Shown piece after piece: positions 13,827-55,538 of a DNA stretch of 64,000 bases. How positions within the stretch are numbered: position 1 is the first letter of the stretch; every line of letters starts with the position of its first letter. The notes under the pieces are model-generated. The model worked only from the letters and a program-made list of their open reading frames with translations. It did not search any database and was not told the DNA's origin. The stretch spans positions 3,762,137 through 3,826,136 of the forward strand of contig NZ_CP046640.1 of the NCBI RefSeq assembly GCF_017751145.1, in the 5' to 3' direction. Made by a program: the position numbers and the translations under genes. The stretch is from Iocasia fonsfrigidae. Its GTDB lineage: Bacteria > Bacillota > Halanaerobiia > Halanaerobiales > DTU029.

Positions 13827-13863
13827 AGTAAACTCCTCAAAAAATTAAGACTGTTACCCCAAT

Positions 13864-15691: not shown

Positions 15692-15695
15692 TCAT

Positions 15696-35222: not shown

Positions 35223-35388
35223 GCAAACTCTTTTGCACTACAAGCTATATTATGATAAACCCACAACCTGCTTCATTCACTGCTAACTAGATTTTAACAG
35301 GCTGACAGAAACAAACAAAGCTACTCAACAATAACTTAAAAAAATCTTTTGAAGAATACCTGAAGTAGATTCATTTCCCAAATAGAAA

Positions 35389-35423
35389 AACCCTATCCCG
35401 GGTTTTTCTACTGGAATAGGGTG
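35389..35423. repeat. CCCTATCCC/GGAATAGGG hairpin (family copy 2)
   Basis: AACCCTATCCC and GGAATAGGGT flank a T-rich loop. It lies after the PIN-domain fragment (ending at 35446) on the minus strand, where a terminator would be expected. Confidence 0.6.
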
Positions 35424-35445
35424 ATTTCCTAAATCTAGTTTCAAC

Positions 35446-39760: not shown

Positions 39761-39827
39761 TTCATCACTCCTAAATCTCCTAAATAGCACATTATCTAAA
39801 TTTAATATCAAAAAATATATTTATCTG

Positions 39828-40514
39828 CTAATTATTACACAAATCTTTTAAGGCCTGCCTCATATGCAATAGGCTTTCCTTAGCAGCTTTATCTTCATCT
39901 TGGATAATAATAGAATCTAATATTTTTTGATGAGGTAATATAGCATGTTTTGCATTTTCTTCAAATTTAAAACTATTTTTTCTCAATACTTTAAAAAAAT
40001 CATTTACTATTCTACCTAATACAACCAATAAATCATTGTTAGAAGCCAGAGCTATTCTTTCATGAAATTTGGCATCCAGTTCAGCCATTTTCTCATAATC
40101 AGAGTTCTCAACACTTGCAACAAATAATTCTTGCATCTCCTTCAAGCTATTGATATCTTCCTTTGTCCTATTTTTAGCAGCTAATCTTGCAGAAAGCGGA
40201 TCCATAGCTATTCTTACTTCTATATAATCACTCATTTCAATTTTATGTTTTCTAATCCATTCTGTTGCGTCCTGCATGAAATTCTCCTTTTTACTTAAAA
40301 CAAATGCACCTTTCCCAGTTTTAATATTAATATAGCCTTTAGATTGAAGAACCCTAAATGCTTCCCGGATAGTTGTCCTGCTAACATTCATCTGTTTGCA
40401 TAATTCATTTTCACTTGGGAGCTTATCACCAATAATGGCCTCTCCATCCTTAATATAATTAATTAAATTTTCAACAGTTAAATCAACAGCTGTTTTTTTT
40501 ATAATAGGTTTCAT
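39828..40514 (-). CDS. GntR/FadR-family transcriptional regulator
   Basis: A 228-residue protein; ATG 40514 follows GAGGGGG. Winged helix: LPSENELCKQMNVSRTTIRE and LQSKGYINIKTGKGAFV. The C-terminal FCD domain has VRIAMDPLSARLAAKNRT, AKFHERIALASNN and a late His (HMRQALKD), a metal/ligand pocket for small organic acids. It sits between the TRAP permease and the transketolase genes with its own promoter, and probably controls the TRAP operon; TTGTATGAC-type sites overlap the dctP promoter. Confidence 0.88.
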   Translation of the reverse strand: MKPIIKKTAVDLTVENLINYIKDGEAIIGDKLPSENELCKQMNVSRTTIREAFRVLQSKGYINIKTGKGAFVLSKKENFMQDATEWIRKHKIEMSDYIEVRIAMDPLSARLAAKNRTKEDINSLKEMQELFVASVENSDYEKMAELDAKFHERIALASNNDLLVVLGRIVNDFFKVLRKNSFKFEENAKHAILPHQKILDSIIIQDEDKAAKESLLHMRQALKDLCNN

Positions 40515-40593
40515 TAATACCCCCTCTTTTTTCAAGCCCTATAATATTTACATAATTTTGATAAAAGTTTTGTTTTCTTTCCTTCTTGCATAA

Positions 40594-40622
40594 ATTATAT
40601 TAAAAACACCAAATCATAGCAA
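40594..40622 (-). promoter_or_regulatory. Candidate promoter of the regulator-transketolase genes
   Basis: Minus strand TTGCTA (40622-40617), 17 bases, TATAAT (40599-40594), in the 120-base gap between dctM and the FadR-type gene. Allows the regulator and transketolase to be made apart from the transporter. Confidence 0.55.
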
Positions 40623-40635
40623 GAAAATAATGTAA

Positions 40636-41916
40636 TTAAAATGATTTTCCTAATAATAATTTAGGTATTGTTAAAGTTATCTGTGGAAAAATATTAATAA
40701 GAATTAAAACAATTATTAATCCTATATAGTATGGTTTTACCGCTTTAAATGCTCTTTGGAAAGATATACCGCCTAATTTTGATGTTAAAAATAATGTAAT
40801 TGCCATTGGTGGTGTTAATAGACCTATCATTAAAGCAAAGACCATTATAACACCAAACTGAATAGGATGCATGCCAATTTGATTAACAATTGGCATTAAA
40901 ATAGGTGTTAAAATCAATATACTTGCATTTGTTTCCATAAATGTCCCCATAAAAATAAGTAAGATATTAATTAATACTAAAATGATAACATTACTGTCTG
41001 TTATTCCAAACAATAAACTTGTTGCAAGTTCTGTTATTTTTTCCATTCCTAAAACCCAGGCAAAAATTTTACCTGATGCCATTAATAACATTACTAAACC
41101 AAGATTTTCAATACCATTTACCAAAACCCGCAATATATCTTTTATTTTAAGTTCCTTATAGATAAAAATTCCAACAATCAATGAATAAAACACTGCTACT
41201 GCTGCTGCTTCTGTTGGAGTAAAAAAACCAGATAATATTCCACCTACCAAAATTATTGGCGATAAAAGTGCAGGGACAGCTGATAAAAATGCATCAAATA
41301 ATTCTTTGAATTTTGCTCTTTTATGCTTTGGATAGTTTCTATTTTTAGCTGTTAAATATACTGTAATCATCATAAAAAGGCCCATAATAATTCCAACACT
41401 TATACCTCCCATAAATAATGACCCTATAGAAATGCTCGCAGCAATACCAAACAAAACCATCGGACTACTGGGGGGTATTATTGGACCTATAATAGATGAA
41501 ACAGCTGTAATGCCGACTGAAAAATCCGCATCAAATCCTTCATTTTTCATAGCTTCTATTTCTATTGCCCCTAAACCAGCACAATCAGCAACTGCTGCCC
41601 CTGACATACCAGCAAACAACATACTTGATAAAACATTTACATGTCCTAATCCACCTGTAATATGACCAACACAACAATTCGCAAATCTAAAAATTCTCTT
41701 TGTAATTCCAGAACTATTCATTAATTCCCCTACAATCATAAAGAAAGGTATTGCCAGCATTGTATATGATGATACTCCACTTACCATAGCTTGAGGTACA
41801 AATGTTAAGGAAACAGAGTTTGCAGATAGAATATATGTCATCGCAGTTAGAACCATTGAAAAACCTACTGGAACTCCCAATGCAATCATAATAAGAAATA
41901 TAATTATAATTAGCAT
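40636..41916 (-). CDS. dctM: TRAP transporter large permease (DctM)
   Basis: A 426-residue protein with about twelve membrane segments. FMIVGELMNSSGITKRIFRF, GMSGAAVADCAGLG, IGPIIPPSSPMVLFGIAASI and LTPPMAITLFL are signatures of the DctM/SiaM subunit that carries substrate driven by the sodium gradient. The gene follows dctQ by 21 bases. The operon order P-Q-M is the usual one for TRAP uptake of organic acids, sugar acids or sulfonates. Confidence 0.93.
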   Translation of the reverse strand: MLIIIIFLIMIALGVPVGFSMVLTAMTYILSANSVSLTFVPQAMVSGVSSYTMLAIPFFMIVGELMNSSGITKRIFRFANCCVGHITGGLGHVNVLSSMLFAGMSGAAVADCAGLGAIEIEAMKNEGFDADFSVGITAVSSIIGPIIPPSSPMVLFGIAASISIGSLFMGGISVGIIMGLFMMITVYLTAKNRNYPKHKRAKFKELFDAFLSAVPALLSPIILVGGILSGFFTPTEAAAVAVFYSLIVGIFIYKELKIKDILRVLVNGIENLGLVMLLMASGKIFAWVLGMEKITELATSLLFGITDSNVIILVLINILLIFMGTFMETNASILILTPILMPIVNQIGMHPIQFGVIMVFALMIGLLTPPMAITLFLTSKLGGISFQRAFKAVKPYYIGLIIVLILINIFPQITLTIPKLLLGKSF

Positions 41917-41937
41917 GAATTACTCTCCTCCTTTTTT

Positions 41938-42438
41938 TCAATTATTACACTTTTTTAATAAGACTAATTCTTGAAGTATATTGTCAAAAGTAAAAAACGC
42001 TGTAAATATCATACCTATCGGAAATGATATATACCAATACCCTGACTTAAATGGCAAAACAGTCATTGGAATCATCATCTTTCTTTCAGCTAATTGAAAT
42101 CCATAATCTGTGAGCACAATACATGCTATCATGATCATAATGTTAATTAATAATTTCAATAAATGATTAATAGTAAAAGGAAACTTACTTGTTAAGACAT
42201 CAATTTGAACATGAACTTTTTTTCTAGCAGCATATGCTGTTGATAAAAAAGCCAACCAGGATGCCAATACAATAGAAAACTCCTCAATTTCAATAATAGA
42301 TCTACTCGTTATTATTCTTCTAGAAACCTGAAAGAATACGATGGTTATTAATACAACTAATACAAAAATAGTTAGCACTTTTACTATTTGTTCTAAATAA
42401 TCTGCACACCTTGAAATACATTTAATAATTTTCTCCAT
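41938..42438 (-). CDS. dctQ: TRAP transporter small permease (DctQ)
   Basis: A 166-residue protein with four membrane helices: VLTIFVLVVLITIVFFQVSR near the start, then IEIEEFSIVLASWLAFLSTA (the conserved W of DctQ), and two later spans. It ties the periplasmic binding protein to the DctM channel. RBS AAGGAGG lies just before its ATG. Two GGAGG-type sites and a short direct repeat of AAGTTGGA occur in the 150-base gap to dctP. Confidence 0.9.
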   Translation of the reverse strand: MEKIIKCISRCADYLEQIVKVLTIFVLVVLITIVFFQVSRRIITSRSIIEIEEFSIVLASWLAFLSTAYAARKKVHVQIDVLTSKFPFTINHLLKLLINIMIMIACIVLTDYGFQLAERKMMIPMTVLPFKSGYWYISFPIGMIFTAFFTFDNILQELVLLKKCNN

Positions 42439-42590
42439 CTTACAGACCTCCTTTTTAAATATAAGTTGAATAATTTAATTGACCTCCTCCTTAAAATATC
42501 ATTAAATAAAATCAAAACAAAATAATTTTTAGGAGGAAGTCATAATCAAATATAATTTGAGTTTGGTCCAACTTTATCCAACTTATTATA

Positions 42591-43604
42591 CTAATTATTT
42601 AAAGCCTGTATTCTTTCGTAAGCCCCTTCAGGATAACTATCTTCATTTTCTTTTAATAATTGAGGCACTATTTCTTTTCTAAAAGATTCAATATCAATCT
42701 CTTCTTTAGGAATAAATATCATTCCTTTTTCTTTAAACTTTGCTAACAATTCTTCATCTGTCTTATTTACCTGTTCATTATGCCATGCAAAACCTTCATC
42801 AATAGCTTCTGAAATAATTTGTTTATGTTCATCACTTAAGCCCTCATACCAATTATTATTAAAATACATAAAATAATTGGTATATTGGTGTTCTGTCTGC
42901 ATTAAATGACTTTGAACCTGATACAAGCCTGCCTGATCAATATTTGCCAATGGGTTTTCTTGAGCTGCTACTATTCCTGTTTGTAATGCTCCAAATAATT
43001 CTCCCCATGATACTGGTGTAACATTTGCACCTGTTGCTCTCCATGAAGCAATTACACCAGGATTATTAGGCGTTCTTAGCTTTAAGCCTGTTATGTCTTC
43101 AACATTATAAACTGCTTTATTGGCTGTTAAATATCTCGGCCCTCTTAAAGCAATTGCATTAATATATGCCCTTACATTAAACTTTTCTAATAATATATTA
43201 GCCAAATCTACACCCATATCACTTTCCCAAAACTTTTGAAGGTGCTCTTGACTATCAAAAATAAAAGCCATATTAAATAATTCCATCCATTCTGGTGATG
43301 CCCAGTTGAATAACATTTCGGCATTTAATAGCATCTCATAATGTCCTTCAACAATTCCTGAACATAAATCTTCATCATTATCTCCAAGCTGACCTTCTAA
43401 ATACAATATTGGTTTTAACGACCCATTAGATTTTTCTTCAATAATGGCCGCTATTTTTTTTGCTGCCTGTGTTGAGAGAAGTGATGAATTATTACCAACC
43501 ATTTTAAAAGATATCACTTCATTTGATGCTGCATAACTACATACGCTTAATAATAATACCCCAATTAATGCTAAAGTCGTTACCACTAATACTTTTTTTC
43601 TCAT
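42591..43604 (-). CDS. dctP: TRAP transporter substrate-binding protein (DctP)
   Basis: A 337-residue exported protein; ATG 43604 follows AAAGGAG, with a signal peptide MRKKVLVVTTLALIGVLLLS cut after SYA. The ligand-pocket region ALRGPRYLTANKAVYNVEDI and LKLRTPNNPGVIASWRATGA contains the Arg that binds the carboxylate, or sulfonate, of TRAP substrates. A Cys precedes the cleavage site, but the -1 Val does not fit a lipobox well. Substrate is unknown. It is the first gene of the operon and has a textbook promoter with an overlapping repeat. Confidence 0.92.
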   Translation of the reverse strand: MRKKVLVVTTLALIGVLLLSVCSYAASNEVISFKMVGNNSSLLSTQAAKKIAAIIEEKSNGSLKPILYLEGQLGDNDEDLCSGIVEGHYEMLLNAEMLFNWASPEWMELFNMAFIFDSQEHLQKFWESDMGVDLANILLEKFNVRAYINAIALRGPRYLTANKAVYNVEDITGLKLRTPNNPGVIASWRATGANVTPVSWGELFGALQTGIVAAQENPLANIDQAGLYQVQSHLMQTEHQYTNYFMYFNNNWYEGLSDEHKQIISEAIDEGFAWHNEQVNKTDEELLAKFKEKGMIFIPKEEIDIESFRKEIVPQLLKENEDSYPEGAYERIQALNN

Positions 43605-43661
43605 TTTTATTCTCCTTTTCTGATAAATTTTTACAGCCATACAATATGTATTTTTGTCGTA

Positions 43662-43718
43662 TTGTATGACTATCAGTTTGTATGACAATATTATATACCC
43701 GAAAATTGCATTTGTCAA
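43662..43718 (-). promoter_or_regulatory. dctP promoter with overlapping TTGTATGAC operator repeats
   Basis: Minus strand TTGACA (43718-43713), 17 bases, TATAAT (43695-43690). Immediately downstream, over the predicted start, TTGTATGACAA (43678-43688, a TTGT-N3-ACAA palindrome) and a second TTGTATGAC (43662-43670) repeat at 16-base spacing. Size and symmetry suit a FadR/GntR repressor. Confidence 0.72.
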
Positions 43719-43736
43719 ACATTTCAAAAATTAAGT

Positions 43737-44340
43737 TAGGAGGAAAATAATCAGTTTATTTTCCGTCCTCTCACACCACCAAGCGTACCGTTCGGCACTT
43801 GGCGGTTCATTAAGAATTAATTGCTTGTGCATATCTTTCCATAAAACTAAAGTATCCTAACTTCTTTAATCTCTGATTAGTAAAAGCACGATTAAGTATG
43901 GGGCTATTGAATATTCTCCAGTAACCTTACTTTAGCTTTCGCTCAATAAAATCAGTCACACTTTGCATAACTCTTTCTGCTGCTTTCTTACTCTTGACAT
44001 ATAGTTGCTTATCATCACACTCATTCCATCAACTCCATGGCTACCTTTATTTCTCACAACTCTCTTATATGCTTGATTCCTATTAAGAATTCTTTCTATC
44101 AGATTATTTGATAATGCACTTTCATCGTTTCTTCTGTCATCTAACACCGTAGAAATACTCTGCACTTTCCCATTATCTCCAGTTTCCAACCTTACCTCCT
44201 GGGAATAGCCTTCATATGAAGTTGTCTGTTTCGGATAGTTTGGGCCTTGTAATAGACACCCTTGTCTTAAGCTAACGGTTGGCACTATCAACCTCCGTAT
44301 CGGACTTTCACCGACTAGAAAGCACCCATGCTGGACGCAC
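43737..44340 (-). mobile_element. Decayed group II intron, maturase mostly deleted
   Basis: The 5' end at 44340 reads GTGCGTCCAGCATGGGTGC and TTTCTAGTCGGTGAAAGTCC, standard for group II introns. A maturase start survives as LIERILNRNQAYKRVVRNKG and SHGVDGM, then skips to the C-terminus, PILNRAFTNQRLKKLGYFSF and MERYAQAINS-stop (about 43820). A domain V-like GAACCGCC...GGTACGCTTGG and a domain VI arm end near 43737. Over 1 kb of the maturase, including the YADD active site, is missing. It is unrelated in sequence to the intact intron at 25045-26923. Confidence 0.8.
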
Positions 44341-44344
44341 AACA

Positions 44345-44386
44345 AAGAAAAACCCTATCCCGGGGGGTTTTTCTCTGGAATAGGGT
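44345..44386 (-). terminator. Terminator of the sulfoquinovose operon (hairpin family copy 5)
   Basis: Minus strand ACCCTATTCC ... GGGATAGGGT followed by TTTTTC. It lies about 30 bases after the aldolase stop (44416) and ends 5 bases before the first base of the decayed intron. Same hairpin family as 30718, 35389, 36404 and 37959. Confidence 0.8.
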
Positions 44387-44415: not shown

Positions 44416-45249
44416 TTATAAATTGGAACGAAATAAATTAATCTTTTCAATCACTTTTTCTTTAACCCCTTCTCTGGCAGCCCCCATAATTACAGTACAT
44501 TCTATCTCTTCGGGATTCTCTTCCCAGACAGATTTAATGCCATTATTAAAAGCAACTTTTAACTCTGTCCCTACATTTACCTTAGAAATACCAATTTTAA
44601 TTGCTTTTTTAATACTTTTTTCTGGTACTCCTGAGCCTCCATGTAATACAAGGGGGATATCTACTCTATCTCTAATTGCTTTTAATCTTTCAAAATCTAA
44701 TTTAGGTTCTCCACTATAAAAACCGTGGGCTGTACCAATCGCTACAGCTAAAGCGGAAATCCCTGTTTCTTTAACAAAGTATTCTGCTTCATCAGGAGCA
44801 GTTAAAGTACTCCCTGTCGACTCTTTTCCATCTTCAATCCCTTGTAACTCACCTAATTCTGCTTCAGCATAAATACCATATTCTTTAGCTCTCTTTACTA
44901 CCAGTTTAGTGTTTTGGATATTATCTTCTAAGGAAAGATGAGAACCATCATACATAACTGAAGAAAAACCAGCTTCAATACATTCAAAAACAACAGCTAA
45001 ATTATCACCGTGATCTAAATGTAAACACAAAGGGACTGAACAATTTTTTTCAGCGGCTTTAACAGTATTGACTAAATAATTTATGCCATAATATCTTAAT
45101 GGTCGTTCAGTAATTCCTATAATTACTGGTGACTGAGTGGCTCTGGCAGCTTCTACTACTCCCTGTACATATTCTAAATTATGAACATTAAATTGACCTA
45201 TGGCATAGCCTTTTTCTGTATCATCTAAAATCTCTTTTAAAGTAATCAT
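44416..45249 (-). CDS. Class II aldolase, predicted 6-deoxy-6-sulfofructose-1-phosphate aldolase
   Basis: A 277-residue FbaA/GatY/KbaY-type protein. Metal ligands are visible in PLCLHLDHGDNLAVV and later VPLVLHGGSGVP; HGFYSGEPKLDF and SKVNVGTELK complete the phosphate site. Class II enzymes cleave ketose 1-phosphates or bisphosphates. In this operon, with a PfkB kinase encoded directly before it, the expected substrate is 6-deoxy-6-sulfofructose 1-phosphate, giving dihydroxyacetone phosphate and sulfolactaldehyde; this is the sulfo-EMP2 arrangement rather than the class I YihT of E. coli. Tagatose or fructose bisphosphate cleavage is the alternative. Start overlaps the kinase stop by 4 bases. 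Confidence 0.82.
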   Translation of the reverse strand: MITLKEILDDTEKGYAIGQFNVHNLEYVQGVVEAARATQSPVIIGITERPLRYYGINYLVNTVKAAEKNCSVPLCLHLDHGDNLAVVFECIEAGFSSVMYDGSHLSLEDNIQNTKLVVKRAKEYGIYAEAELGELQGIEDGKESTGSTLTAPDEAEYFVKETGISALAVAIGTAHGFYSGEPKLDFERLKAIRDRVDIPLVLHGGSGVPEKSIKKAIKIGISKVNVGTELKVAFNNGIKSVWEENPEEIECTVIMGAAREGVKEKVIEKINLFRSNL

Positions 45250-46391
45250 TCTACTACCCCCTGTTTATTAAAATATGATGGATATTCAATTAAAAAACTA
45301 ATTAGTTCTTCTCTACTTGGTGGTATACCATTTCTAATAAAATAACCTGCTGTTCCACTGGCAATAGCTAATCTCCCTTCAGCTTGATTACTACATAATA
45401 AACCTAAAATGTAGCCACCATTAAAAGTATCACCGGCCCCAGTAGTGACTACTGGATTTTCACAATAGGGTTGCTTTAATATCTTAATACCCTCCTGGTT
45501 ACTACTAGCAGCAAATCGATTTGTATGTACTACCACATTAGATATCCTTGTTTTTTCTCTCACTTTATCCAAAATTTCTACTAACTCCATCTTTATATGC
45601 TCAGTAACAATACCTAGAGCTTTTGCTGTATCTAATAATTCACTTCTATTAAAACTAAGTGTTAGCTTGAAATATTCTTCTAGCTGAGATAAGCTACTGC
45701 AAATAAAGGCCAAATCTTGAGCACTCCTCTTTTTAACATTTCCAAAATCCATAAATAATTGACGCGATTTACGACTTAACTTGGGGCCAACCTCTTTTTT
45801 TATTCCTTTACAGATAGTATGATAATAAGGCATATTAGCCCAATACCCTAAACCTATTAAGTCAGCCTCTTCAATCAAATCAATTAATTTAGCTAAACCT
45901 ACTTTATTTTTTATTTTTTCCCAGTCCATATTCCTTATATTTTGATTAGCAGGAAACATTAACTTCCCATCTGCAAATTCAAAAATATGAGCAATACAGG
46001 GATCCCCTAAAGAAATGACTTCTGTCATTTCTACTAAATTAGAAAATCTTTTGTTTATTTTTTTATCTCCAAACAAAGATATCAAAGTAGTGTCTATTCC
46101 TAATTTTCCTAACACCCTTCCTGTATTGGCACTAAACCCTCCAGCACGCTGGTCTTTTTTTAATATCTCAGTACTTAAACCACCACCAGCTACTTCCTTG
46201 ATTCTTTGATTTAAAGTTAGCATTGACTCCATAATTTGATAATCAGTAGCTGAATTTCTCTCTTCTACTAAGTGCCAAACATTATCAACAAAACCATCCC
46301 AACCTAAAATTACTTTTTTATTAAAAGTAATTTTTTTTAATCTATTAATTGCCTGTTGGGTATAAATTTTAATCCTTTTTTCGTTAGACAA
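45246..46391 (-). CDS. PfkB-family kinase, predicted 6-deoxy-6-sulfofructose kinase
   Basis: A 381-residue ribokinase-fold protein, longer than the usual 300-330 because of an N-terminal extension and an insert around residues 190-260. RAGGFSANTGRVLGKLG is the substrate loop and VVTTGAGDTFNGGYILGLL the C-terminal PfkB signature with the catalytic Asp. Unlike typical kinases it begins VILGWDGFVDNVWHLVEER. It would phosphorylate O1 of sulfofructose. The role comes from its place between the DUF4867-like gene and the class II aldolase; the family alone does not define the substrate. Confidence 0.8.
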   Translation of the reverse strand: MSNEKRIKIYTQQAINRLKKITFNKKVILGWDGFVDNVWHLVEERNSATDYQIMESMLTLNQRIKEVAGGGLSTEILKKDQRAGGFSANTGRVLGKLGIDTTLISLFGDKKINKRFSNLVEMTEVISLGDPCIAHIFEFADGKLMFPANQNIRNMDWEKIKNKVGLAKLIDLIEEADLIGLGYWANMPYYHTICKGIKKEVGPKLSRKSRQLFMDFGNVKKRSAQDLAFICSSLSQLEEYFKLTLSFNRSELLDTAKALGIVTEHIKMELVEILDKVREKTRISNVVVHTNRFAASSNQEGIKILKQPYCENPVVTTGAGDTFNGGYILGLLCSNQAEGRLAIASGTAGYFIRNGIPPSREELISFLIEYPSYFNKQGVVE

Positions 46392-46422
46392 TTAACTTCC
46401 CCCTTTATAGGTTTTAGATAAT

Positions 46423-47091
46423 CTAATTAATTTTTATTCTTATATTTTCACCTAAAATACCTGCTTTAGCTCCTTGTTCTACTAGGTTATTTCTAGAAGG
46501 ATGAACTAAAAGCCACTTGTTTTTAGCAAATAATAAATCCTGATTATCTTTTTTCTTATCCTGCTTATTAAGTGGTAGATTTGTACCTGCAGGTAAGATA
46601 ACTACAGATTTGAATCCCCTTTTTTCTACTTTACAAGGGGCGTAATGAAGAGTAGTGCTGTAGATTTCAATAGCGGTACCTTTAGGAAGATAAAATGCTT
46701 CAACTTGCTTAGCATCATAAGTCCCCTCTTGGATATCCTGAACCTGTCCTAATAATAAAATTAAATTTGTAATAGCTATATTTATTTCAGCCCCTTTATG
46801 ATATTCAAGACCATTTAAAGAAGAATTCTTCCCATTACAGTACCCAATCTCAATTAACATCTCACCATAGAAATCCTCTTCTATTCTTTTTTTGATAGCT
46901 AATTTATCCAGCTCAAGTATTTTAGCTTCATATTTATTTCCCTGCCTAGGTATTTCAGTCTTTTTTTCTACATAATCAATAATATTTTTAAAATCATAAT
47001 TTTTAATTATCTTTCCATATTTTTTAAAACTATCATCCTCTATATTTTTAATTACAAGTTTTGGGTTTAATTTTCTAATTTTATTAATCAT
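46423..47091 (-). CDS. DUF4867-like cupin protein of unknown function in the sulfoquinovose operon
   Basis: A 222-residue cytoplasmic protein. The middle is cupin-like: LEYHKGAEINIAITNLILLL (His98, Glu102) and FYLPKGTAIEIYSTTLHYAP (Glu142, His149) give a plausible four-residue metal site. The N-terminal 60 residues are helical and charged. I associate this plan with DUF4867 proteins, which occur beside aldolase genes, but the reaction is not known to me. In this operon it could be a mutarotase, a lactonase or an auxiliary isomerase acting on sulfoquinovose or sulfofructose. It ends 31 bases before the kinase and starts where the sulfoquinovosidase stops. Confidence 0.6.
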   Translation of the reverse strand: MINKIRKLNPKLVIKNIEDDSFKKYGKIIKNYDFKNIIDYVEKKTEIPRQGNKYEAKILELDKLAIKKRIEEDFYGEMLIEIGYCNGKNSSLNGLEYHKGAEINIAITNLILLLGQVQDIQEGTYDAKQVEAFYLPKGTAIEIYSTTLHYAPCKVEKRGFKSVVILPAGTNLPLNKQDKKKDNQDLLFAKNKWLLVHPSRNNLVEQGAKAGILGENIRIKIN

Positions 47092-49101
47092 TATATTTTT
47101 GATAGCTCCTTAAATAATTCTACATAATCAGAATTTTTTCTATAAAACACTGGCGGACAACCTAAGGGGGCATCTATCTCCACAATACCTCCTTGATATT
47201 CTTCTCCTGTCCACAAATGAGCCCAATTATCCTCTGGTAGATATACCTCCCAGTTTTTTTTCCCCAGCCTTATAAACAGGTGCAATCAGGAGATCTGGGC
47301 CAAATAAATATTCATACTTCAGGTCATAAGTCTTAGAGTCATCTTCGTAATGCATAAAAAGTGGTCTTTGAACAGGAACACCTCTTTGCGAGTTAATTTC
47401 CACTAAATCTTTAATATATGGTTTTAATGTAATATAGACCTTAGTCATTTTTGCTAAATGTTCAATGGCTTCATCATCATCATAAACCTGGAAGTTTTCA
47501 TCAGGTCTATTACCCTCATGCGACCTCATCACTGGTGTAAAGGCTGCCATTTCAGCCCAGCGCATGAATAATTCTTTACTTCTAATATTTCCGTGTAAAC
47601 TGGTATAACCCCCTATATCACTATGATGCAAACCACAACCACTCATTCCCAATGACAATGCCCCGGGAATAACTGAAGCCAAACCATCATCTAAACTCCA
47701 ATTTACACTCTGATCCCCTGCCCACATTAATGTACAATATTTTTGATTGCCAGTAAAGCCTGCCCGCATAAAATATACTATTTTTTCTAATTTACCAGCC
47801 TCTTTTACAGCATCATAGTTAAGCTTAGCCCAGATAACCGGCCAGGCATTATGCATAATTTCAGCACTTACGCCATTACTAAGATGACAGTCTACTGGTA
47901 AATACTCACCAAAGTCTGCCATCCAACCGTCTAGCCCAAAATCGATTAAATTTTCCTTAATAACTCCTTTATACCATTCTACAGCAGCTTGATTAGTAAA
48001 ATCTACAACCCCACAGTAAAACTCTCCGAAATCAACTAAATATATTTCACCATCAACATTTAAGGCTAAATATCCTTCTTGAGCAGCTTGCTCATACAAT
48101 CTTCCTTCCTGGGCTAGATATGGGTTAATATAGCCCATAAAGCGAATGCCTTTTTCTTTTAGTTGATGAATCTTTTTATCTAAATCAGGATAGAGTTCAC
48201 TATTCCATTCCCAATCCCACATTAACCGTTTCCCAAAGGAAGTATGCCTAACCCCCTGCCAGTCTTGACACCATAACGCTGAAATTGCAACACCTTTGTC
48301 AATTAACTTATAAGCCTTCTCAATTACAAAATCTGTTCCACCTTGAATCCCTAATATAAAACCGTTATAGATCCAATCAGGTAATTTTGGCTGTCTCCCT
48401 AAAAATGCAGTTAATTTCTCCACTAATTCCAAATAACTGTCCCCAGTTTCAAATATTATATACTCTGGAATATCCCACACCTGTAATTCATGGAATTGAT
48501 CATTTCTAAAATCAAAATCTAAATAAGCAGTACTTGCTAGATGGCAGTAATATTTTCTAGTAGATATATAAGTAGGTTGAGGATAATTAGTTGTATAATA
48601 ATCTCCCCCTGCTTTATCTTTAAGATCAGCTTGCCAGGTCGTATAGCTTTTTTTATTTCTGCCCACTCCTGGTTCAGAAGTCCACAAAGGAAAACTCTTA
48701 CCTCGCAGATTAAAATATGATAATTGTTCACCACAACCATATACTTTTTCATTTTCTGTTGCCATAATTCTAATCCACAACCTATTAATTGATTCCGCAT
48801 GGTTTTCAAAATAGATTTTTAATTGGTTATTTTCCATTTTAACCAATAATTTTATCTGAATATTATCTCCTTTAAACCTCCTCAATGCAATTGAATAACC
48901 TTCACTTCGCCTTTTTATAGTTGCATCTTCTAGGGGAATCCGCTTAATAAGATAATCCTCTATCTTAAAATTTCCCCGGTACATATCAATCCTGGCTTCC
49001 CCATAACCAAGGTAAATAAAAGGTCTTTGAGGAGAATGGAAGATAATATCTCTCCCCTTTAAGCTAATTATAAAATTGTCTTCATTCTGGACTAATTCCA
49101 T
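47091..49101 (-). pseudogene. yihQ: GH31 sulfoquinovosidase (YihQ-type), broken by one base
   Basis: Two frames together give a 669-residue protein (E. coli YihQ 678). Catalytic nucleophile Asp396 in GWMADFGEYLP, acid Asp463 in MWAGDQSVNWSLDDG. The sulfonate pocket is complete: Arg292 and Trp295 in GKRLMWDWEWN and Tyr499 in HHSDIGGYT; all five residues have a constant offset of 9 from E. coli R301, W304, D405, D472 and Y508. The enzyme releases sulfoquinovose from plant sulfolipid glycosides. An A8 run (47254-47261) has one base too many: frame 1 ends GEKKLGGISTRG, while the other frame continues KNWEVYLPEDNWAHLWTGEE. Either slippage, a recent mutation or a sequencing error; every other site is conserved, which argues for a recent event. 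Confidence 0.9.
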
Positions 49102-49104
49102 AAT

Positions 49105-50883
49105 TTATAACTCCTCTCCTATGGTGCTATTATTATTCTCTGTCTTTTGCTGCTTGATTAAATATTCACTATATTTTTCATACCAATTATTAAGACTAAA
49201 ATATCCTAATATAATAGTAACTATAACTTGAATAGCAACAATTTTCCAAAATGATGGATATACAATCCCATCTGTATATGCTAAACCAAATTTTGAAAAT
49301 AGTATATAAGTAAAGACAATGGCAGAAGCTAATAACACTGAAATTAATAACGAATAACGCCAAGGTTTCATATCAACTTTGGCTTTACTCTGATAAGTCC
49401 ATGCCTCCTTTTTAGGTGTAAACTTAGAAATAACTAACATAATTCCTACCTCAACCCAAAATAAAATGAAATACACATGTACAAAGTGAATCGGTACCTT
49501 CCAGCCAATTAAATCTTCTAGACCCCAAACTAATAAATAATAAGTAATCACATGGAAATAAACAACTACCTTAGCAGCTAAAGCCGGAACACGCCTCGTT
49601 AATACTCCTACCATAACTAATACGATAATTGGAATATTAAAGAATCCCGTAAATCTACGAATTAAATCCCACACTCCATCTGGGGCATTCATTAACATTG
49701 GAGCTACAAGAAATGAAATTAAAGCTACTATAATACCAAACCATTTACTAACCCTAATCTGTTCTTCATCAGAGGCATCCGGATTAAAATGTGGTTGATA
49801 AATATCTAAAACAAACATTGTTGCTGCACTATTTAATAAAGAGTTAAAAGAACTTAATACTGCTCCTAACAATACTGCTAAGAAAAAACCAGATAAAGCC
49901 ACTGGCAATAAATTACTCACTAAAGTAGGAAAGGCTAAATCTACTGATGCTAAGTTGCCTCCATACAAGTGAAAAGCAATAACTCCAGGTAGCATCATCA
50001 TAAAAGGCACTAATATTTTAAAAAATCCTGTAAAAATTGCTCCTTTCTGTCCTTCAGCTAAGTCTTTAGCACCTAATGTCCGCTGGATCACATATTGATT
50101 GGTACCCCAATAAAATAAGTTAGCATAAATCATTCCTGTAAAAAGGGTTCCAAAAGGAATAGAATCAGTAACCCTACCTATGGCATTTAATTTTTCAGCA
50201 TGATTAACAGCAATATACTTCATTCCAGAAATAATACTCCCATCACCTAAAGCCATGAAACCTAATACAGGCATTAAGATCCCAATAATTAATAAGCCAA
50301 TACCATTAATTGTATCGGAAACTGCTACTGCTTTTAGCCCCCCAAAAATAGCATAAATTGCTCCAATAATACCAACAATCCAAACCACCAGCCAAACTGA
50401 CTGACTATATGAAATATTGAGTATATTGGGTACATCAAACAGTTTTAATACAGCTAACGACCCTGAATATAATACTGATGGAATAGTAACAAAGACATAT
50501 CCTAGCATAAATAAATAAACAGATAATCTTCTAACCCCTTCATCATAACGATCACTTAAAAAAGCTGGTAATGTTGTGAATGCCCCACGTAAATATTTAG
50601 GTAATAAATAAAGAGCAAAGATAATAATAGCAAATCCAGCTGTAACTTCCCAGCCCATATTAGACATATTTAAGCGATAAGACTGACCATTTAAGCCAAT
50701 TAACTGTTCAGCGGATAAGTTTGTTAATAGTAACGAACCTGCAATAAAAATACCAGTTAAACCTCTGCCAGCTAAAAAATATCCATCTGCACTTGAAACT
50801 TCTCCCTTAGTCTTCTGATAAGCAATCCAGGCAACCAGTGCCATAAACAACGCAGCAGTTATAATTGTATAAGTAATGTTCAT
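49105..50883 (-). CDS. Sodium/solute symporter (SSS family), predicted sulfoquinovose or sulfoquinovosyl-glycerol importer
   Basis: A 592-residue membrane protein from ATG 50883 (GGAGGGG upstream; the longer in-frame start at 50928 lacks one). About 13-14 helices. GYFLAGRGLTGIFIAGSLLL and LSAEQLIGLNGQSYRLNMS are the SGLT/SSS N-terminal signature, and TFMPAFLSD-like TLPAFLSDRYDEGVRRLSV follows. SSS members carry sugars, sugar acids and osmolytes with Na+. Its place directly in front of the sulfoquinovosidase gene, 3 bases away, argues for uptake of the sulfosugar or its glyceryl glycoside. The substrate is inferred. Confidence 0.85.
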   Translation of the reverse strand: MNITYTIITAALFMALVAWIAYQKTKGEVSSADGYFLAGRGLTGIFIAGSLLLTNLSAEQLIGLNGQSYRLNMSNMGWEVTAGFAIIIFALYLLPKYLRGAFTTLPAFLSDRYDEGVRRLSVYLFMLGYVFVTIPSVLYSGSLAVLKLFDVPNILNISYSQSVWLVVWIVGIIGAIYAIFGGLKAVAVSDTINGIGLLIIGILMPVLGFMALGDGSIISGMKYIAVNHAEKLNAIGRVTDSIPFGTLFTGMIYANLFYWGTNQYVIQRTLGAKDLAEGQKGAIFTGFFKILVPFMMMLPGVIAFHLYGGNLASVDLAFPTLVSNLLPVALSGFFLAVLLGAVLSSFNSLLNSAATMFVLDIYQPHFNPDASDEEQIRVSKWFGIIVALISFLVAPMLMNAPDGVWDLIRRFTGFFNIPIIVLVMVGVLTRRVPALAAKVVVYFHVITYYLLVWGLEDLIGWKVPIHFVHVYFILFWVEVGIMLVISKFTPKKEAWTYQSKAKVDMKPWRYSLLISVLLASAIVFTYILFSKFGLAYTDGIVYPSFWKIVAIQVIVTIILGYFSLNNWYEKYSEYLIKQQKTENNNSTIGEEL

Positions 50884-51004
50884 TTTAAATCCCCTCCATA
50901 AAAATAATATAACAAGTTCTATTTTCAAAACACTCTCTCTATCTTATATCAACTTATTATTAATTATAAAAGAGGGTATGGATTTTTAATTAAATTAAAA
51001 AATT

Positions 51005-52321
51005 TTATTTGATTACCTTCCATCCTTTTAATTGCGCAAAGATTTCAAATGGTCTAATAAAATCTCCATAAACTACAGAAATATGATGGGCAATACCATT
51101 ACCTATCACTGTATTTAAAACATTTTTAATATCTTTTTCAAACTCAGCTTTAAAATAAGTCCCTTTTAATTCTTTTTCCATTGGAATACTTTCACCCTTT
51201 TGCAAAAAGACCCTATATTCCCCCTGAGCAGAGTCAAAGCGCAGAACAGAAAATTCTCCACTTTTCATTACAAAATCAGCTGTTACACCTCTGCCCCCAG
51301 CAAAATAAGTATCTAAAGAAATATTACACTTGCCATCCCATAAATTACATGGTGCCACTCCACAGTGCCATAATAAGGCATAATCTTCTTCTAAATCAAC
51401 TTGAGATAAGTCAGCTAAAAATGGTGTCTTCGCCCCTACAGCCTGTTGAGCTAACATGGAAATAGTTCCTTCAATATCCCCTTCACAGCCTAAGATATAA
51501 TTTTCTGCCTGTAAAAAAGACATTGCTGCACATGGTGAAATGCCAAAATCTCGAGCAAATTCTGGCCAGCATCTAATTGCTAAAGCAGATAGTCTATTAT
51601 CATCAACGAATTTTTGTAATTTAACAACTAACCGTGCAACATCTTTTAACTGTTCTACTGTAATGCCAGAGGCATCAAAAATTTCTTTTAATTGCTGCTC
51701 TTTTTTTTCAACGTCTTCTCTTAAAACCTCTAAATTCATTACTTCATTTAATTCATAGTGATCTATTAACATGCCCATTTCACTAAAACTATTTAACTCA
51801 TCAATAGCCAAATTAAAAAATCCCTGTGCCCGATAACCCAAAATACCAATATGAGCTTCTTCCAAAGCAGCATTGATTCTAAGCGCATCAATCCAGTCTT
51901 GCTCAATAGTATCAGCTACTATAGCATGATATTTTCTATTACCAGCTTTGTATAAATTTGAGGCATCTAGATTAACACCACAAACTGAATTCAAACGAAT
52001 CTTGCCGCCATCATAAGGGAGTTCATTTAACCCCCAAAGTAAAATTGGTTTCCTAATTGCTTTGTCCAATTCTAATACTAAGTGGCCCAAATGAAAAGTC
52101 CCACTAATAACAACTAGTCCATCAATATTACTCTCAAGCAACTTATTAGCAGCTTTTTTAGCATCTTTAACTTCGATTACCAAATCATTTATAAAGGTAT
52201 ACGCTGTATTTTCAATTTTTTTAAGCCCCTTTTTAAGCTCTTGATAAATTTTTTCAGCAGCTTTATAATCAAAAGTTTTTCTAGCTAAGCAAACTACTCC
52301 TAGTTTAACCCCTTTTTTCAT
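51005..52321 (-). CDS. FucI/AraA-like isomerase, predicted sulfoquinovose isomerase (SqvD/SqiD-type)
   Basis: A 438-residue protein with the L-fucose/L-arabinose isomerase fold: N-terminal VCLARKTFDYKAAEKIYQEL, VVISGTFHLGHLVLELDKAI in the first Rossmann domain, and a C-terminal metal site with AIRCWPEFARDFGISPCAAM, CEGDIEGTISMLA and a late NGIAHHISVVYGDF. This class replaces the unrelated YihS isomerase in sulfo-TAL, sulfo-EMP2 and sulfo-TK operons. It would convert sulfoquinovose to 6-deoxy-6-sulfofructose with a divalent metal. GGAGGG precedes its ATG. The 120-base gap downstream before the symporter gene holds no gene. Confidence 0.8.
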   Translation of the reverse strand: MKKGVKLGVVCLARKTFDYKAAEKIYQELKKGLKKIENTAYTFINDLVIEVKDAKKAANKLLESNIDGLVVISGTFHLGHLVLELDKAIRKPILLWGLNELPYDGGKIRLNSVCGVNLDASNLYKAGNRKYHAIVADTIEQDWIDALRINAALEEAHIGILGYRAQGFFNLAIDELNSFSEMGMLIDHYELNEVMNLEVLREDVEKKEQQLKEIFDASGITVEQLKDVARLVVKLQKFVDDNRLSALAIRCWPEFARDFGISPCAAMSFLQAENYILGCEGDIEGTISMLAQQAVGAKTPFLADLSQVDLEEDYALLWHCGVAPCNLWDGKCNISLDTYFAGGRGVTADFVMKSGEFSVLRFDSAQGEYRVFLQKGESIPMEKELKGTYFKAEFEKDIKNVLNTVIGNGIAHHISVVYGDFIRPFEIFAQLKGWKVIK

Positions 52322-52336
52322 TTTTTTCCCTCCATA

Positions 52337-53245
52337 TTAAATCCATTTAAAGATCAGCCACATTAAAATAAAACTAATGATATTGCTAATATTAACAATA
52401 CTCCCTGTTATTTTAGTATTTAATTTGTTCTCTATAGAATAAGGAATTATGGCCATCCCAGCAGGCATAATTAAACCTAATAAAATAACTCCTTTAAATA
52501 ATTTACTATAAGGTAACAAAAAATATAAACTGCCCCCAACTATTAATCCCAAAATATATTTAATACTAATAGACTTGATAATATTTTTTAATTCAAGCTT
52601 ATCTAAAGAAAATTCTAAATAAAGACCCAAAATTAATAGAACTAAAGGCCCATTCATTACAGCTAACCTTTGTAATATTTGTAGTGGAATGCCACTAAGC
52701 CTAAGATGAAGAAGGTTTAAAGAAATAGCTAATACATAACTCATTAATGGAACAAATTTCATTAATATAATTAATATCTCCTTTAATAAAAGTTTTTTGC
52801 TATTTGGGGCATAAAAACTGGAAACTATATAGGTCAAACCAAAGATAATAAATGCATTGCCCATATCAAAAATAGCTATATACTTTAATCCTAGTTTCCC
52901 CCAGATAGTCTCTACAAAAGGGTACGCAAATAAACCAATATTAAAACCCAGCAAAGATATAATTAGACTCCCTTTATTAGCTCTTAGGTCTTTTTTAAAC
53001 AAATACCTTCCTAAGAGTAATGCCAATAAAGCAAAAATAATATTAATTAATGGTAATAAAATTAATTTTAAACTTAGTTCAAGACTAGAAAATACTGTTA
53101 TAATCAAAGCCGGTAGAGTTACATTCATTACTAATTTGACCAAAATTTGACCATCATCTTTAGTTAATAGCCTAATTCTTTTAAGTATATATCCCAATAA
53201 AATAATTGAAGATGATATTACAAATATTTGATTGATCTTCTCCAT
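52337..53245 (-). CDS. AEC-family membrane transporter, candidate sulfonate exporter
   Basis: A 302-residue, ten-helix protein of the auxin efflux carrier family. LGYILKRIRLLTKDDGQILV at the start, NVTLPALIITVFSSLE in helix 2-3, LGFNIGLFAYPFVETIWGKL mid-protein and GVILLGLIMPAGMAIIPYSI near the end match AEC permeases. Fermenting sulfoquinovose degraders must excrete 2,3-dihydroxypropane-1-sulfonate or sulfolactate; an exporter is otherwise missing from the operon. The direction of transport is inferred. It lies between the isomerase and reductase genes with gaps of 4 and 15 bases. Confidence 0.75.
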   Translation of the reverse strand: MEKINQIFVISSSIILLGYILKRIRLLTKDDGQILVKLVMNVTLPALIITVFSSLELSLKLILLPLINIIFALLALLLGRYLFKKDLRANKGSLIISLLGFNIGLFAYPFVETIWGKLGLKYIAIFDMGNAFIIFGLTYIVSSFYAPNSKKLLLKEILIILMKFVPLMSYVLAISLNLLHLRLSGIPLQILQRLAVMNGPLVLLILGLYLEFSLDKLELKNIIKSISIKYILGLIVGGSLYFLLPYSKLFKGVILLGLIMPAGMAIIPYSIENKLNTKITGSIVNISNIISFILMWLIFKWI

Positions 53246-53249
53246 CTTC

Positions 53250-54113
53250 TTAATTTCTGTTTTGAACTACTTTGATTGTTGCTGAAAAATCTTCTTTACC
53301 ATAGTTAGCTTCCATAGCTTCTTGATAAATTGTGTGAACTATTTCTGTCCCTGGTAAAGTTAGATTAAATTCTTCTATCAAATCCTTAGCTATACTAACA
53401 TCCTTACTCATATTTTTAATTGAGAAAGCAGTCGTAAAATCCTGCTGTTTAATATTTTTCCCTTTAGTATCTAAATAAAAGTTCTGTCCACCACCATAAG
53501 AAATAGCAGTAATAAAATCATCAATTTCAATATTAGCTTTATTTGCCAGAGTAATCATTTCATTAACAGCATTTTGAATTTGGCCCACCAACATATTATG
53601 ACAGATTTTCATTACTAATCCTGCCCCATTATCTCCTAGATAGATAATATCCTGACCCATACACAATAAAATATCTTCTATCTTTTGATAGCTTTTTTTA
53701 TCCCCACCAACATAAATACCTAATGTTCCATCAATAGCTGCTGACTTACTTTTAACCACTGGAGCATCAATCATAACTGCCCCTGTTTCCCGTACTTTAG
53801 CAGCCAATTCTTTAGACACAGCAGGTTTAATCGTGCTCATGTCTATCCAAATTTTATTCGCAGATAATACTGGCAATAACTCTTGACCTACTGCTTTAAC
53901 ATGTTCACTTTTAGGCACCATAGAAATAATAACGTCAGCCTTTTCTCCTACTTCTTTAGCTGAACTAGCAGCAATAGCACCTAATTGAACTAATCGTTTA
54001 ATTTTTTCTTCCTTAATATCAAAAACAATTACTTTTTCATCTCTTTTTTTCAAAATATTAGCACACATTGATTCTCCCATAATCCCTAAACCAATAAAGC
54101 CTATTTTTTTCAT
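53250..54113 (-). CDS. Beta-hydroxyacid dehydrogenase, predicted 3-sulfolactaldehyde reductase (YihU-type)
   Basis: A 287-residue enzyme. IGFIGLGIMGESMCANILKK is the NAD site; Lys169 and Asn173 in LVMKICHNML are the catalytic pair. The substrate motif of ordinary members (DAPVSGG) here reads DAPVVKSKSAAIDGTLG. In E. coli YihU the same place is GRTSANA, whose Arg123 holds the sulfonate; Lys121 occupies that position here, so a sulfonate or similar anion is expected. It reduces sulfolactaldehyde to 2,3-dihydroxypropane-1-sulfonate, recycling NADH during fermentation. It is the first structural gene of the operon, next to the promoter. Confidence 0.83.
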   Translation of the reverse strand: MKKIGFIGLGIMGESMCANILKKRDEKVIVFDIKEEKIKRLVQLGAIAASSAKEVGEKADVIISMVPKSEHVKAVGQELLPVLSANKIWIDMSTIKPAVSKELAAKVRETGAVMIDAPVVKSKSAAIDGTLGIYVGGDKKSYQKIEDILLCMGQDIIYLGDNGAGLVMKICHNMLVGQIQNAVNEMITLANKANIEIDDFITAISYGGGQNFYLDTKGKNIKQQDFTTAFSIKNMSKDVSIAKDLIEEFNLTLPGTEIVHTIYQEAMEANYGKEDFSATIKVVQNRN

Positions 54114-54147
54114 TAACTATTCCTCCCTCTTTAAAATTTTTTCACTA

Positions 54148-54170
54148 ATTGATTAAACCTTTTAATTAAT
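54148..54170 (-). promoter_or_regulatory. Candidate ROK operator of the sulfoquinovose operon
   Basis: Palindrome ATTGATTAAA-N3-TTTAATTAAT, lying 30-50 bases downstream of the predicted transcription start and upstream of the reductase ribosome binding site. Identical arms recur at 54300-54322. A position inside the leader would allow roadblock repression by the ROK protein encoded upstream. Confidence 0.55.
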
Positions 54171-54207
54171 ACAACAAAAAATTTTTTCTTACCCTTTGTT
54201 TATCTTA

Positions 54208-54236
54208 AGTATACAATAATGGCTGTTAATTGTCAA
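54208..54236 (-). promoter_or_regulatory. Promoter of the sulfoquinovose operon
   Basis: Minus strand TTGACA (54236-54231), exactly 17 bases, TATACT (54213-54208). It is the only strong promoter seen ahead of the eight-gene unit that runs to the terminator at 44386. Confidence 0.75.
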
Positions 54237-54291
54237 ATAATAAATAAAAACACACCGATTATAGCACTTTTTTTAATTAATCAACAAGAAT

Positions 54292-54330
54292 AAAAGGCAA
54301 TTAATTAAATCTTTTAATCAATTGCCTTTT
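54292..54330 (-). terminator. Hairpin overlapping the ROK gene stop codon
   Basis: AAAAGGCAATT (54330-54320 on the minus strand) pairs perfectly with AATTGCCTTTT (54302-54292), and the loop contains the second copy of the ATTGATTAAA-N3-TTTAATTAAT palindrome. It may terminate the ROK transcript before the operon promoter, bind the ROK protein, or both. Confidence 0.6.
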
Positions 54331-55538
54331 ATCGTTAATTTAGGGATAATTCCTCCTGTTTTAAAAAAGAAATTTTGAATAGCTATTGAAGTACCACTAA
54401 TATATCCCTCTTTCAATTCACTTAATAAAATAAATCCTTTTAGATTATTATTAGGTAGCATATTTTTTAAATTATTCTTTAATTCAAGCATAAATATCTT
54501 ATATTTAAATAGTTCACCATGTAAAATGACTTTATTAGGGTCATAAATAGTAATCACATTAGATATACCTAAGCCCATATAAAATGCCATTTCATTAATA
54601 AGCTTAATTATATCTCCTTTTTCCAATTCAGTTTCATCTAATAAAGTTTTAAAATTTAAATCTTTATACATATTTAAATCTAAAGTAGTATCCTGGGGAG
54701 TTTTTTCTTGTAGTTTGTTTATAACTGCCTTTTTCGATACTATAGTTTCCAAACAACCCCTTTTCCCGCAACGGCATAGTGAACCATTACTATCTAAAAT
54801 CATATGCCCTATCTCTCCGGCCATATTTGTACTACCATAATATATTTCTTTATTAATAATCATAGCCGAACCAATTCCCGGCCCATGCTTTACAAACAAA
54901 ATATTATTACCTCTAGTTTGATTATTATGGTCGATTTCTGCTAAGGCAAGAGCCCTTACATTGTTATCTACAATGACATTTGCCTGTAAAATATCCTCTA
55001 AAATCTTTTTAATTGGAACCTCTTGATTCCACAACCCATAGGCATGTTTACTAATCCCCTTTTTAAAATCTACTACACCAATAATCCCCACTCCAAAGCC
55101 TAAAATATTCTCCTTAAGAACATTATTACTCCATAAAAAACTCATACACTTTTGTGCCAGCTCTTTTAAAAATTCTTTGGGTTTTAAATCTTTATTTGTA
55201 GTAATAAGCATTGAGTTTAAAATATTACCTTTTAAATTGGCTATTCCTATCTTAGTAAATTCTAAACCAATATCTACCCCAATTACATAATATTTATTAT
55301 AATTAATATCAACTAATATTTTTTTTCTACCTACTTTTTTTGTACTATCTTCTACTTCTCCTCTCTCCTTAACTATTTTTTCTGAAATTAACTCACCAAC
55401 TAAAATACTTACAGCTGCTGGAGTAAGCCCTATTTTATTAGCTATATCTTTTCTAGATAAAGAACCTTCACTTTTTAATACTCTTAAAATAGAAGCCCTA
55501 TTTTTTATTTTCACATTGGACATATTAATTCCTGTCAT
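54318..55538 (-). CDS. ROK-family (NagC/XylR) transcriptional regulator
   Basis: A 406-residue protein; ATG 55538 follows GGGAGGTGC. The N-terminal winged helix is RKDIANKIGLTPAAVSILVG and LISEKIVKERGEVED. The ROK domain follows: VIGVDIGLEFTKIGIANLKG, VKHGPGIGSAMIINKEIYYG, GEIGHMIL and the zinc motif CRCGKRGCLET. As in transcriptional ROK proteins, a sugar (here most likely sulfoquinovose or sulfofructose) would relieve DNA binding. It lies immediately upstream of the sulfoquinovose operon on the same strand, with palindromes nearby, so it is the likely repressor. Confidence 0.88.
   Translation of the reverse strand: MTGINMSNVKIKNRASILRVLKSEGSLSRKDIANKIGLTPAAVSILVGELISEKIVKERGEVEDSTKKVGRKKILVDINYNKYYVIGVDIGLEFTKIGIANLKGNILNSMLITTNKDLKPKEFLKELAQKCMSFLWSNNVLKENILGFGVGIIGVVDFKKGISKHAYGLWNQEVPIKKILEDILQANVIVDNNVRALALAEIDHNNQTRGNNILFVKHGPGIGSAMIINKEIYYGSTNMAGEIGHMILDSNGSLCRCGKRGCLETIVSKKAVINKLQEKTPQDTTLDLNMYKDLNFKTLLDETELEKGDIIKLINEMAFYMGLGISNVITIYDPNKVILHGELFKYKIFMLELKNNLKNMLPNNNLKGFILLSELKEGYISGTSIAIQNFFFKTGGIIPKLTIKGN

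Follow-up and report, generated by a model that had tools for sequence, protein, structure and literature searches.

A putative sulfoquinovose degradation operon of Iocasia fonsfrigidae with a kinase of the ketohexokinase family PF25270

Sulfoquinovose (SQ), a plant sulfosugar, is among the most abundant organosulfur compounds. We asked by which route it would be degraded by a group of genes from Iocasia fonsfrigidae, a member of the Halanaerobiales, which are anaerobic halophiles. The genes lie at 44416-55538 of a 64,000-nucleotide (nt) stretch of contig NZ_CP046640.1 (the window; positions are window coordinates unless a locus is named), and the source genome consists of a single contig of 3.93 Mb. 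A first-pass annotation had read them as a complete operon of the sulfo-EMP2 type, a version of the Embden-Meyerhof-Parnas (EMP) route of sulfoglycolysis. Our analysis indicates that the operon very probably degrades SQ and its glycosides by a sulfoglycolytic EMP route, with a predicted sulfofructose kinase of the family PF25270 and under ROK control. We also consider it likely that this kinase, as the third and an independently recruited sulfofructose-1-kinase family, defines a separate version of sulfo-EMP in anaerobic halophiles. This version would stand under a ROK regulon which also governs sulfo-transketolase (sulfo-TK) operons of the order, and two modules for splitting sulfofructose would share one isomerase and one switch.

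Genes of the operon and related loci

Profile searches identified nine genes, each on the minus strand and each matching its family far beyond chance. In order of transcription, with a promoter between the ROK and reductase genes and a terminator behind the aldolase gene, they are:

54318-55538, minus strand: ROK-family regulator (helix-turn-helix and ROK domains; PF00480, E = 3e-43; HTH_24), probable sulfosugar-responsive repressor
53250-54113, minus strand: reductase of the beta-hydroxyacid dehydrogenase type (30% identical to YihU), probable NADH-dependent sulfolactaldehyde reductase
52337-53245, minus strand: AEC-family transporter (PF03547), possible exporter of a sulfonate, dihydroxypropanesulfonate (DHPS)
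51005-52321, minus strand: FucI-fold aldose-ketose isomerase related to SftI and SqvD (NF048012; likeness to locus L038), proposed to convert SQ to sulfofructose
49105-50883, minus strand: SSS-family sodium symporter (PF00474; NF007790, 720 bits), probable importer of SQ or SQ-glycerol
47227-49101, minus strand: GH31 sulfoquinovosidase (SQase), open reading frame (ORF) as sequenced, 624 amino acids (56% identical to YihQ; pocket residues; match to structure 8r56)
46423-47091, minus strand: DUF4867 cupin of the SqvB/SftX type (PF16161, E = 9e-82), putative sulfoglycolysis accessory protein
45246-46391, minus strand: kinase of the ketohexokinase family PF25270 (orthologues in L036 and L037), proposed sulfofructose 1-kinase
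44416-45249, minus strand: class II aldolase (PF01116, 323 bits; DPR arginine absent), proposed sulfofructose-1-phosphate aldolase

The first-pass annotation had named these genes at these positions and in a single direction, and this was borne out, as the E-values rule out chance. The start of the ROK gene at 55538 is sound, an ATG preceded by GGAGG at a distance of about 7 nt (the longest ORF begins at 55583), and the symporter gene starts with ATG at 50883 (the longest ORF begins at 50928).

We searched for the isomerase at the level of the class in 59 genomes, including 12 of Halanaerobium. Close relatives were present in two of these 12, therefore the trait is patchy. Two Halanaerobium operons, L036 and L037, both contain the reductase, AEC, isomerase, GH31, DUF4867, kinase, aldolase and ROK genes (53-83% identity), although the gene order is rearranged between them and the window, with the ROK gene placed 5' or 3' of the operon. 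Thus, the operon of a YihQ-type GH31, a FucI-fold isomerase and a class II aldolase, for which a neighbourhood comparison had been suggested, recurs in two Halanaerobium species. The AEC transporter was kept in both operons (58-59%). The SSS symporter had an orthologue in L036 (81%), while in L037 an ABC importer stands instead; the pairing of SSS and AEC transporters is real for the window, but the transporter set varies.

The sulfoquinovosidase and the nature of the substrate

The GH31 protein was 56% identical to E. coli YihQ across 612 residues. In the alignment Q253, Q279, R292, W295 and Y499 corresponded to Q262, Q288, R301, W304 and Y508 of YihQ, and D396 and D463 to D405 (nucleophile) and D472 (acid/base). 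All seven residues, i.e. the QQRWY sulfonate/substrate motif and the two catalytic aspartates, were kept, which confirms the earlier claim of a YihQ-type glycosidase with a full sulfonate pocket. The roles of the seven YihQ residues are those given by the published structures. The closest solved relative was 8r56 (1001 bits), which we take to be SftG of E. rectale, followed by 6pnr and YihQ.

Alternatively, the operon could be for a different 6-modified glucoside or for an ordinary sugar (tagatose, fucose or fructose), the specificity of its GH31 enzyme having changed. Ordinary sugars are substrates in the isomerase, aldolase, reductase and kinase families too, and the order contains a related cluster of GH31, isomerase, aldolase and PfkB kinase genes without the sulfonate pocket (L039 and L040). 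However, the QQRWY pocket of the window GH31 is full, and the isomerase and the operator described below are common to a sulfo-TK cluster, a gene set sensible only for sulfosugars. We regard this explanation as very improbable. The pocket residues are missing in the GH31 protein of L039, which belongs to a related but different cluster, therefore the pocket test discriminates.

L039 and L040, both from genus g17, each combine a YicI-like GH31 lacking the SQase pocket with a class II aldolase that has no DPR arginine, a PfkB kinase, a ROK regulator and an ABC transporter. Against the model for sulfoquinovose isomerase, their isomerase scored 347 bits.

The kinase

The kinase had been annotated as PfkB. 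This holds for the superfamily (45 bits), but the proper family is PF25270, 'prokaryotic ketohexokinase' (241 bits, cut-off 35). Orthologues of the same family (59-62% identity) occupy the equivalent place in both Halanaerobium operons. SqiK, the kinase by which sulfo-EMP2 is in part defined, belongs to PF00365 (PMC9594981; PMC11968277), and so do the kinases of L140 and L142, the canonical-type Bacillota SQase loci with kinases which we scanned. In profile scans no SqiK-type PF00365 kinase was found in the window operon or in the two orthologous operons.

Haloarchaeal ketohexokinases of PF25270, from Haloarcula hispanica and H. marismortui, phosphorylate fructose at C1 in an ATP-dependent manner (PMC11519228), and C1 is the position required for sulfofructose-1-phosphate. 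The window kinase was approximately 30% identical to the haloarchaeal members and aligned weakly with YihV (103 residues, E = 3e-4). In a tree of 18 PF25270 members the three operon kinases formed their own clade. G318, G320 and D321 of the GAGD catalytic motif were universal in the 18 members, and many polar positions set the operon kinases apart from the remaining members, including N149, R153, Y183 and N186. According to our reading of the alignment, these four lie near the stretches that presumably carry Asn109 and Arg138, which we take to be the sulfonate-binding residues of YihV.

The PF25270 cut-off was exceeded in 18 of 398 genomes of the phylum. No YihQ-type GH31 was observed beside the other PF25270 kinases at the loci fetched from the phylum and from the window's own genome, where these kinases stood in other contexts. 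A scan of genome contigs with the kinase alignment matched only Halanaerobium kushneri, which, with two short patterns, is a weak test of rarity. In the library searched, no paper joined sulfoquinovose and ketohexokinase. Judging from family and gene context, the kinase would represent a third non-orthologous family of sulfofructose kinases, after YihV and SqiK, with sulfofructose as its predicted substrate.

The same genome encodes a second PF25270 kinase (9179-10282 of locus L107, at approximately 3738.2 kb), next to a SIS-like protein, an ABC transporter and a ROK regulator. That locus is possibly a fructosamine-type pathway, and its context suggests several ketoses as substrates of PF25270 kinases.

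At positions 6028-18196 of locus L142 (genome G299) lies a canonical sulfo-EMP2 cluster into which genes for a dihydroxyacetone kinase and an iron alcohol dehydrogenase are inserted, perhaps for the glycerol moiety of SQ-glycerol. In its SQase the two glutamine positions are occupied by K and E.

The isomerase, the DUF4867 protein and the aldolase

The isomerase matched PF02952 barely above the cut-off, and its sole NCBIfam match was sulfoquinovose isomerase (NF048012). E280, D304 and H413 were invariant in all 19 isomerases compared. An isomerase of the SqvD type, as in sulfo-EMP2, is thus present by family, at 25-29% identity to the canonical Bacillota SqvD and with a sub-cut-off score on the NCBIfam model. 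A much closer relative (65%) was found in L038, a cluster in genome G014 of the window's own family. L038 further encodes a split transketolase and an isomerase of the RpiB type, as well as an aldehyde dehydrogenase, two subunits of a CoA ligase and a transporter of the sodium:sulfate type. This is the gene set of the sulfo-TK pathway ending in sulfoacetate (PMC9594981). The position of this relative inside a complete sulfo-TK cluster links the isomerase clade with sulfofructose without recourse to the SQase. The best solved relative of the DUF4867 protein was 9gyy (257 bits), and this type of protein has been tied to sulfoglycolysis (PMC11968277).

The aldolase belongs to the same family (PF01116) as SqiA of sulfo-EMP2, and was 37-42% identical to the canonical Bacillota sulfo-EMP2 aldolases. 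We observed four groups in the aldolase tree: house-keeping aldolases of fructose- and tagatose-bisphosphate (FBP and TBP), canonical sulfo-EMP2 aldolases (100/100), 8q57/8q58, and the three Halanaerobiales aldolases (100/100). We take 8q57 and 8q58 to be SqiA structures from Hafnia and Yersinia. Unions of the groups were not rejected in approximately unbiased (AU) tests (p = 0.13-0.28), therefore an independent recruitment of the aldolase is possible, but not shown. The DPR arginine was kept in the house-keeping FBP and TBP aldolases and absent from all three sulfo groups, the Halanaerobiales, canonical sulfo-EMP2 and 8q57/8q58 enzymes. It corresponds to Arg331 of E. coli FBA, a residue in contact with the C6 phosphate.

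These data also bear on whether we are dealing with an ordinary Bacillota sulfo-EMP2 operon, in which the different kinase is trivial or a true SqiK is encoded elsewhere in the genome. In its favour are the fold of the isomerase, the class II aldolase and the types of DUF4867 protein and reductase, and an aldolase clade shared with canonical SqiA was not rejected (p-AU = 0.28). On the other hand, PF00365 is absent from the operon and its two orthologues, the PF25270 gene is kept in three of three, and the isomerase and aldolase are as distant from the canonical enzymes as given above. We find this explanation improbable. Of the sulfo-EMP2 label, EMP-type SQ degradation and the isomerase, aldolase and reductase families can be retained, while the kinase and the low identities speak for a separate version with a PF25270 kinase.

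The reductase and the end product

The reductase, at 30% identity to YihU (E = 5e-43), is of the YihU type also found in sulfo-EMP2. It keeps Lys171 of YihU and the NAD-type Asp31, and Lys121 replaces Arg123 of YihU; the reductase of L142 likewise has Lys at this position. There was no sulfolactaldehyde dehydrogenase in the operon. We considered breakdown of DHPS by a glycyl radical enzyme and rejected it, as the genome's only enzyme of this kind resembling pyruvate formate-lyase (PFL) reached 524 bits, far under the DHPS-dehydratase cut-off of 1000 bits. DHPS is therefore probably the end product, and the earlier proposal of DHPS as the product of EMP-type SQ degradation is well supported in this form.

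Promoter, operator and a proposed ROK regulon

The following control elements were recognized:

54208-54236, minus strand: promoter of the catabolic genes, TTGACA-17-TATACT (TTGACA-type equivalents in L036, L037 and L038)
54149-54169, minus strand: operator TTAATTAAAAGGTTTAATCAA between the promoter and the first gene (only perfect match in its own genome)
54301-54321, minus strand: second operator-like site with one mismatch, inside a 20-pair hairpin (pattern match)
44345-44386, minus strand: probable intrinsic terminator, CCCTATTCC...GGGATAGGG followed by a T-run (z = -1.8, weak)

The promoter had been described as strong. It agrees with the consensus at 11 of 12 positions and is the second best of 70 sites in the region, but 67 were expected by chance, and the site at 54236-54208 is convincing only because the operator adjoins it. 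The terminator annotated at 44345 is plausible but weak. The hairpin at the second operator-like site may also terminate ROK transcription.

The operator pattern TTAATTAAAAGNNTTAATYAA was found just downstream of TTGACA-type promoters at four of four loci, 7-38 nt past the -10 box. Perfect matches numbered one in the window's genome, one in G014 (sulfo-TK), one in G019 (Halanaerobium kushneri) and three in G022, and all six in these four genomes were at sulfosugar loci. Two sites with at most one mismatch were found in the window (0.01 expected), and the reversed pattern was rarer at up to two mismatches. The pattern was derived from these loci and is present there by construction, so that the weight rests on the lack of perfect sites elsewhere in approximately 14 Mb of AT-rich DNA. 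The ROK regulator had orthologues at three related loci (55%, 55% and, in L038, 48%). Since the operator is conserved and the regulators are orthologous at 48-55%, a sulfosugar ROK regulon appears to be common to EMP-type and TK-type operons. The first-pass annotation had named the ROK regulator and had not seen the operator, which now supports it.

The broken frame of the sulfoquinovosidase gene

Two further features concern the 3' end of the SQase gene:

47254-47261, minus strand: A8 run with a +1 frame break (comparison with the neighbouring frame)
47091-47253, minus strand: rest of the SQase C-terminus in the neighbouring frame, up to the TAATG overlap with the DUF4867 start (matches the C-termini in L036 and L037)

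The +1 shift in the A8 run ends the ORF early, at 624 instead of 669-671 amino acids, while the frame is unbroken in L036 and L037. The operon called complete therefore does contain all the named genes, but the SQase frame is broken. This frameshift could mean that the operon is decaying in the strain, with the C-terminus of the SQase lost and only free SQ, or none, being used. Such decay, which is compatible with SQ degradation by the EMP route, seems unlikely to us, as no other gene is interrupted and the lost frame reads through to the TAATG overlap. Both observations indicate a very recent change, a homopolymer reading error or slippage; on sequence grounds, the break may be a reading error in the homopolymer, a site of transcriptional slippage or a young mutation. 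The function of the SQase in this strain depends on this frameshift.

Proposed pathway

We favour SQ degradation by an EMP route with a PF25270 kinase because all the SQase residues are kept and the gene set persists despite rearrangement and the exchange of a transporter. Several observations weigh against it. The isomerase, at 209 bits, stays below the 700-bit equivalog cut-off of NF048012. The reductase scored higher on the tartronate semialdehyde reductase model (210 bits) than on the YihU model (174 bits), and the YihU substrate motif is mostly not kept. The DPR arginine is also missing in the aldolases of several non-sulfo operons, so its loss is consistent with a C6 sulfonate but does not prove it. 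A full-length SQase ORF was not found in this assembly owing to the A8 shift. AlphaFold models from two-sequence alignments were too poor for inspection of the substrate pockets (predicted local distance difference test, pLDDT, 40 for the isomerase and 51 for the kinase).

In the proposed pathway, the sodium symporter would import SQ or SQ-glycerol, and the GH31 enzyme, in which active-site and pocket residues are in place, would release SQ from the glycoside. The FucI-fold isomerase, by its family and neighbourhood, would form sulfofructose with the help of the DUF4867 protein, and the ketohexokinase-family kinase would phosphorylate it at C1. The class II aldolase, which has lost the C6-phosphate arginine, would cleave the product to dihydroxyacetone phosphate and sulfolactaldehyde. 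Sulfolactaldehyde would be reduced to DHPS by the YihU-like reductase with regeneration of NAD+ for fermentation, and DHPS would be exported, possibly via the AEC transporter. At the conserved site TTAATTAAAAGNNTTAATYAA the ROK protein would repress the operon until a sulfosugar is bound.

If this is true, sulfoglycolysis extends to hypersaline anaerobes, which we found reported in no paper, and one more kinase family joins the sulfofructose kinases. Searches keyed on SqiK or YihV would overlook the PF25270 version, and the operator, being defined by sequence, could be used to locate further sulfosugar genes.

Neighbouring DNA

The minus strand at 38017-43727 carries genes for a TRAP transporter, an FCD/GntR regulator and a split transketolase behind a perfect TTGACA-17-TATAAT promoter (43718-43690), a separate operon for a sugar or sugar acid. 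We rejected it as a part of the pathway, as its transketolase (38017-39811) resembled a non-sulfo pair (47-53%) more than the one in L038 (41-42%).

Directly past the operon terminator, an apparent truncated group II intron with a GUGCG-type 5' end and the start of a reverse-transcriptase-like ORF lies at 43956-44343 (minus strand). Such a place is expected for introns which insert behind terminators. The stretch had no Rfam or Pfam match; 46 nt of it recur at 35384-35426 (89%). Another group II intron, matched in D1-D4-6 and in domain V/VI, lies at 25045-26888 (minus strand).

Comparison with known sulfoglycolytic systems

Hybrid sulfo-EMP clusters with swapped enzymes are already on record (PMC9594981; PMC10991401; PMC13372026). 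No sulfofructose transaldolase (PF00923) of the sulfo-TAL pathway was present among the nine genes. With sulfo-EMP of E. coli (yih) the window shares the YihQ-type SQase (56%), the YihU-type reductase (30%) and a kinase of the ribokinase superfamily. However, relatives of the YihS isomerase, the YihT class I aldolase and YihR are lacking in the window, and the match to the YihV kinase is the weak one given above.

Sulfo-EMP2 of Bacillus urumqiensis and Megamonas (SqvD-SqiK-SqiA) has the same predicted intermediates as the window operon, and shares with it the FucI-type isomerase, class II aldolase, YihU-like reductase, DUF4867 protein and YihQ-type SQase. It differs in its kinase (PF00365, not PF25270); moreover, the isomerase and aldolase of the window lie on separate branches, and its ROK regulator has its own operator.

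The Halanaerobiales version of sulfo-TK (L038) has in common with the window the isomerase (65%), the ROK regulator (48%) and the same operator sequence. In contrast, L038 would use a transketolase to split sulfofructose and has sulfoacetate genes for the final part of the route, and it lacks the kinase, aldolase and SQase, while the split transketolase SqwGH and the RpiB-type SqwI are not present in the window operon. Finally, the haloarchaeal ketohexokinases (PMC11519228) share with the window kinase the family PF25270 and, by prediction, phosphorylation of a ketohexose at C1. They differ in that the identity is approximately 30% and the predicted substrate of the window kinase is sulfofructose and not fructose.

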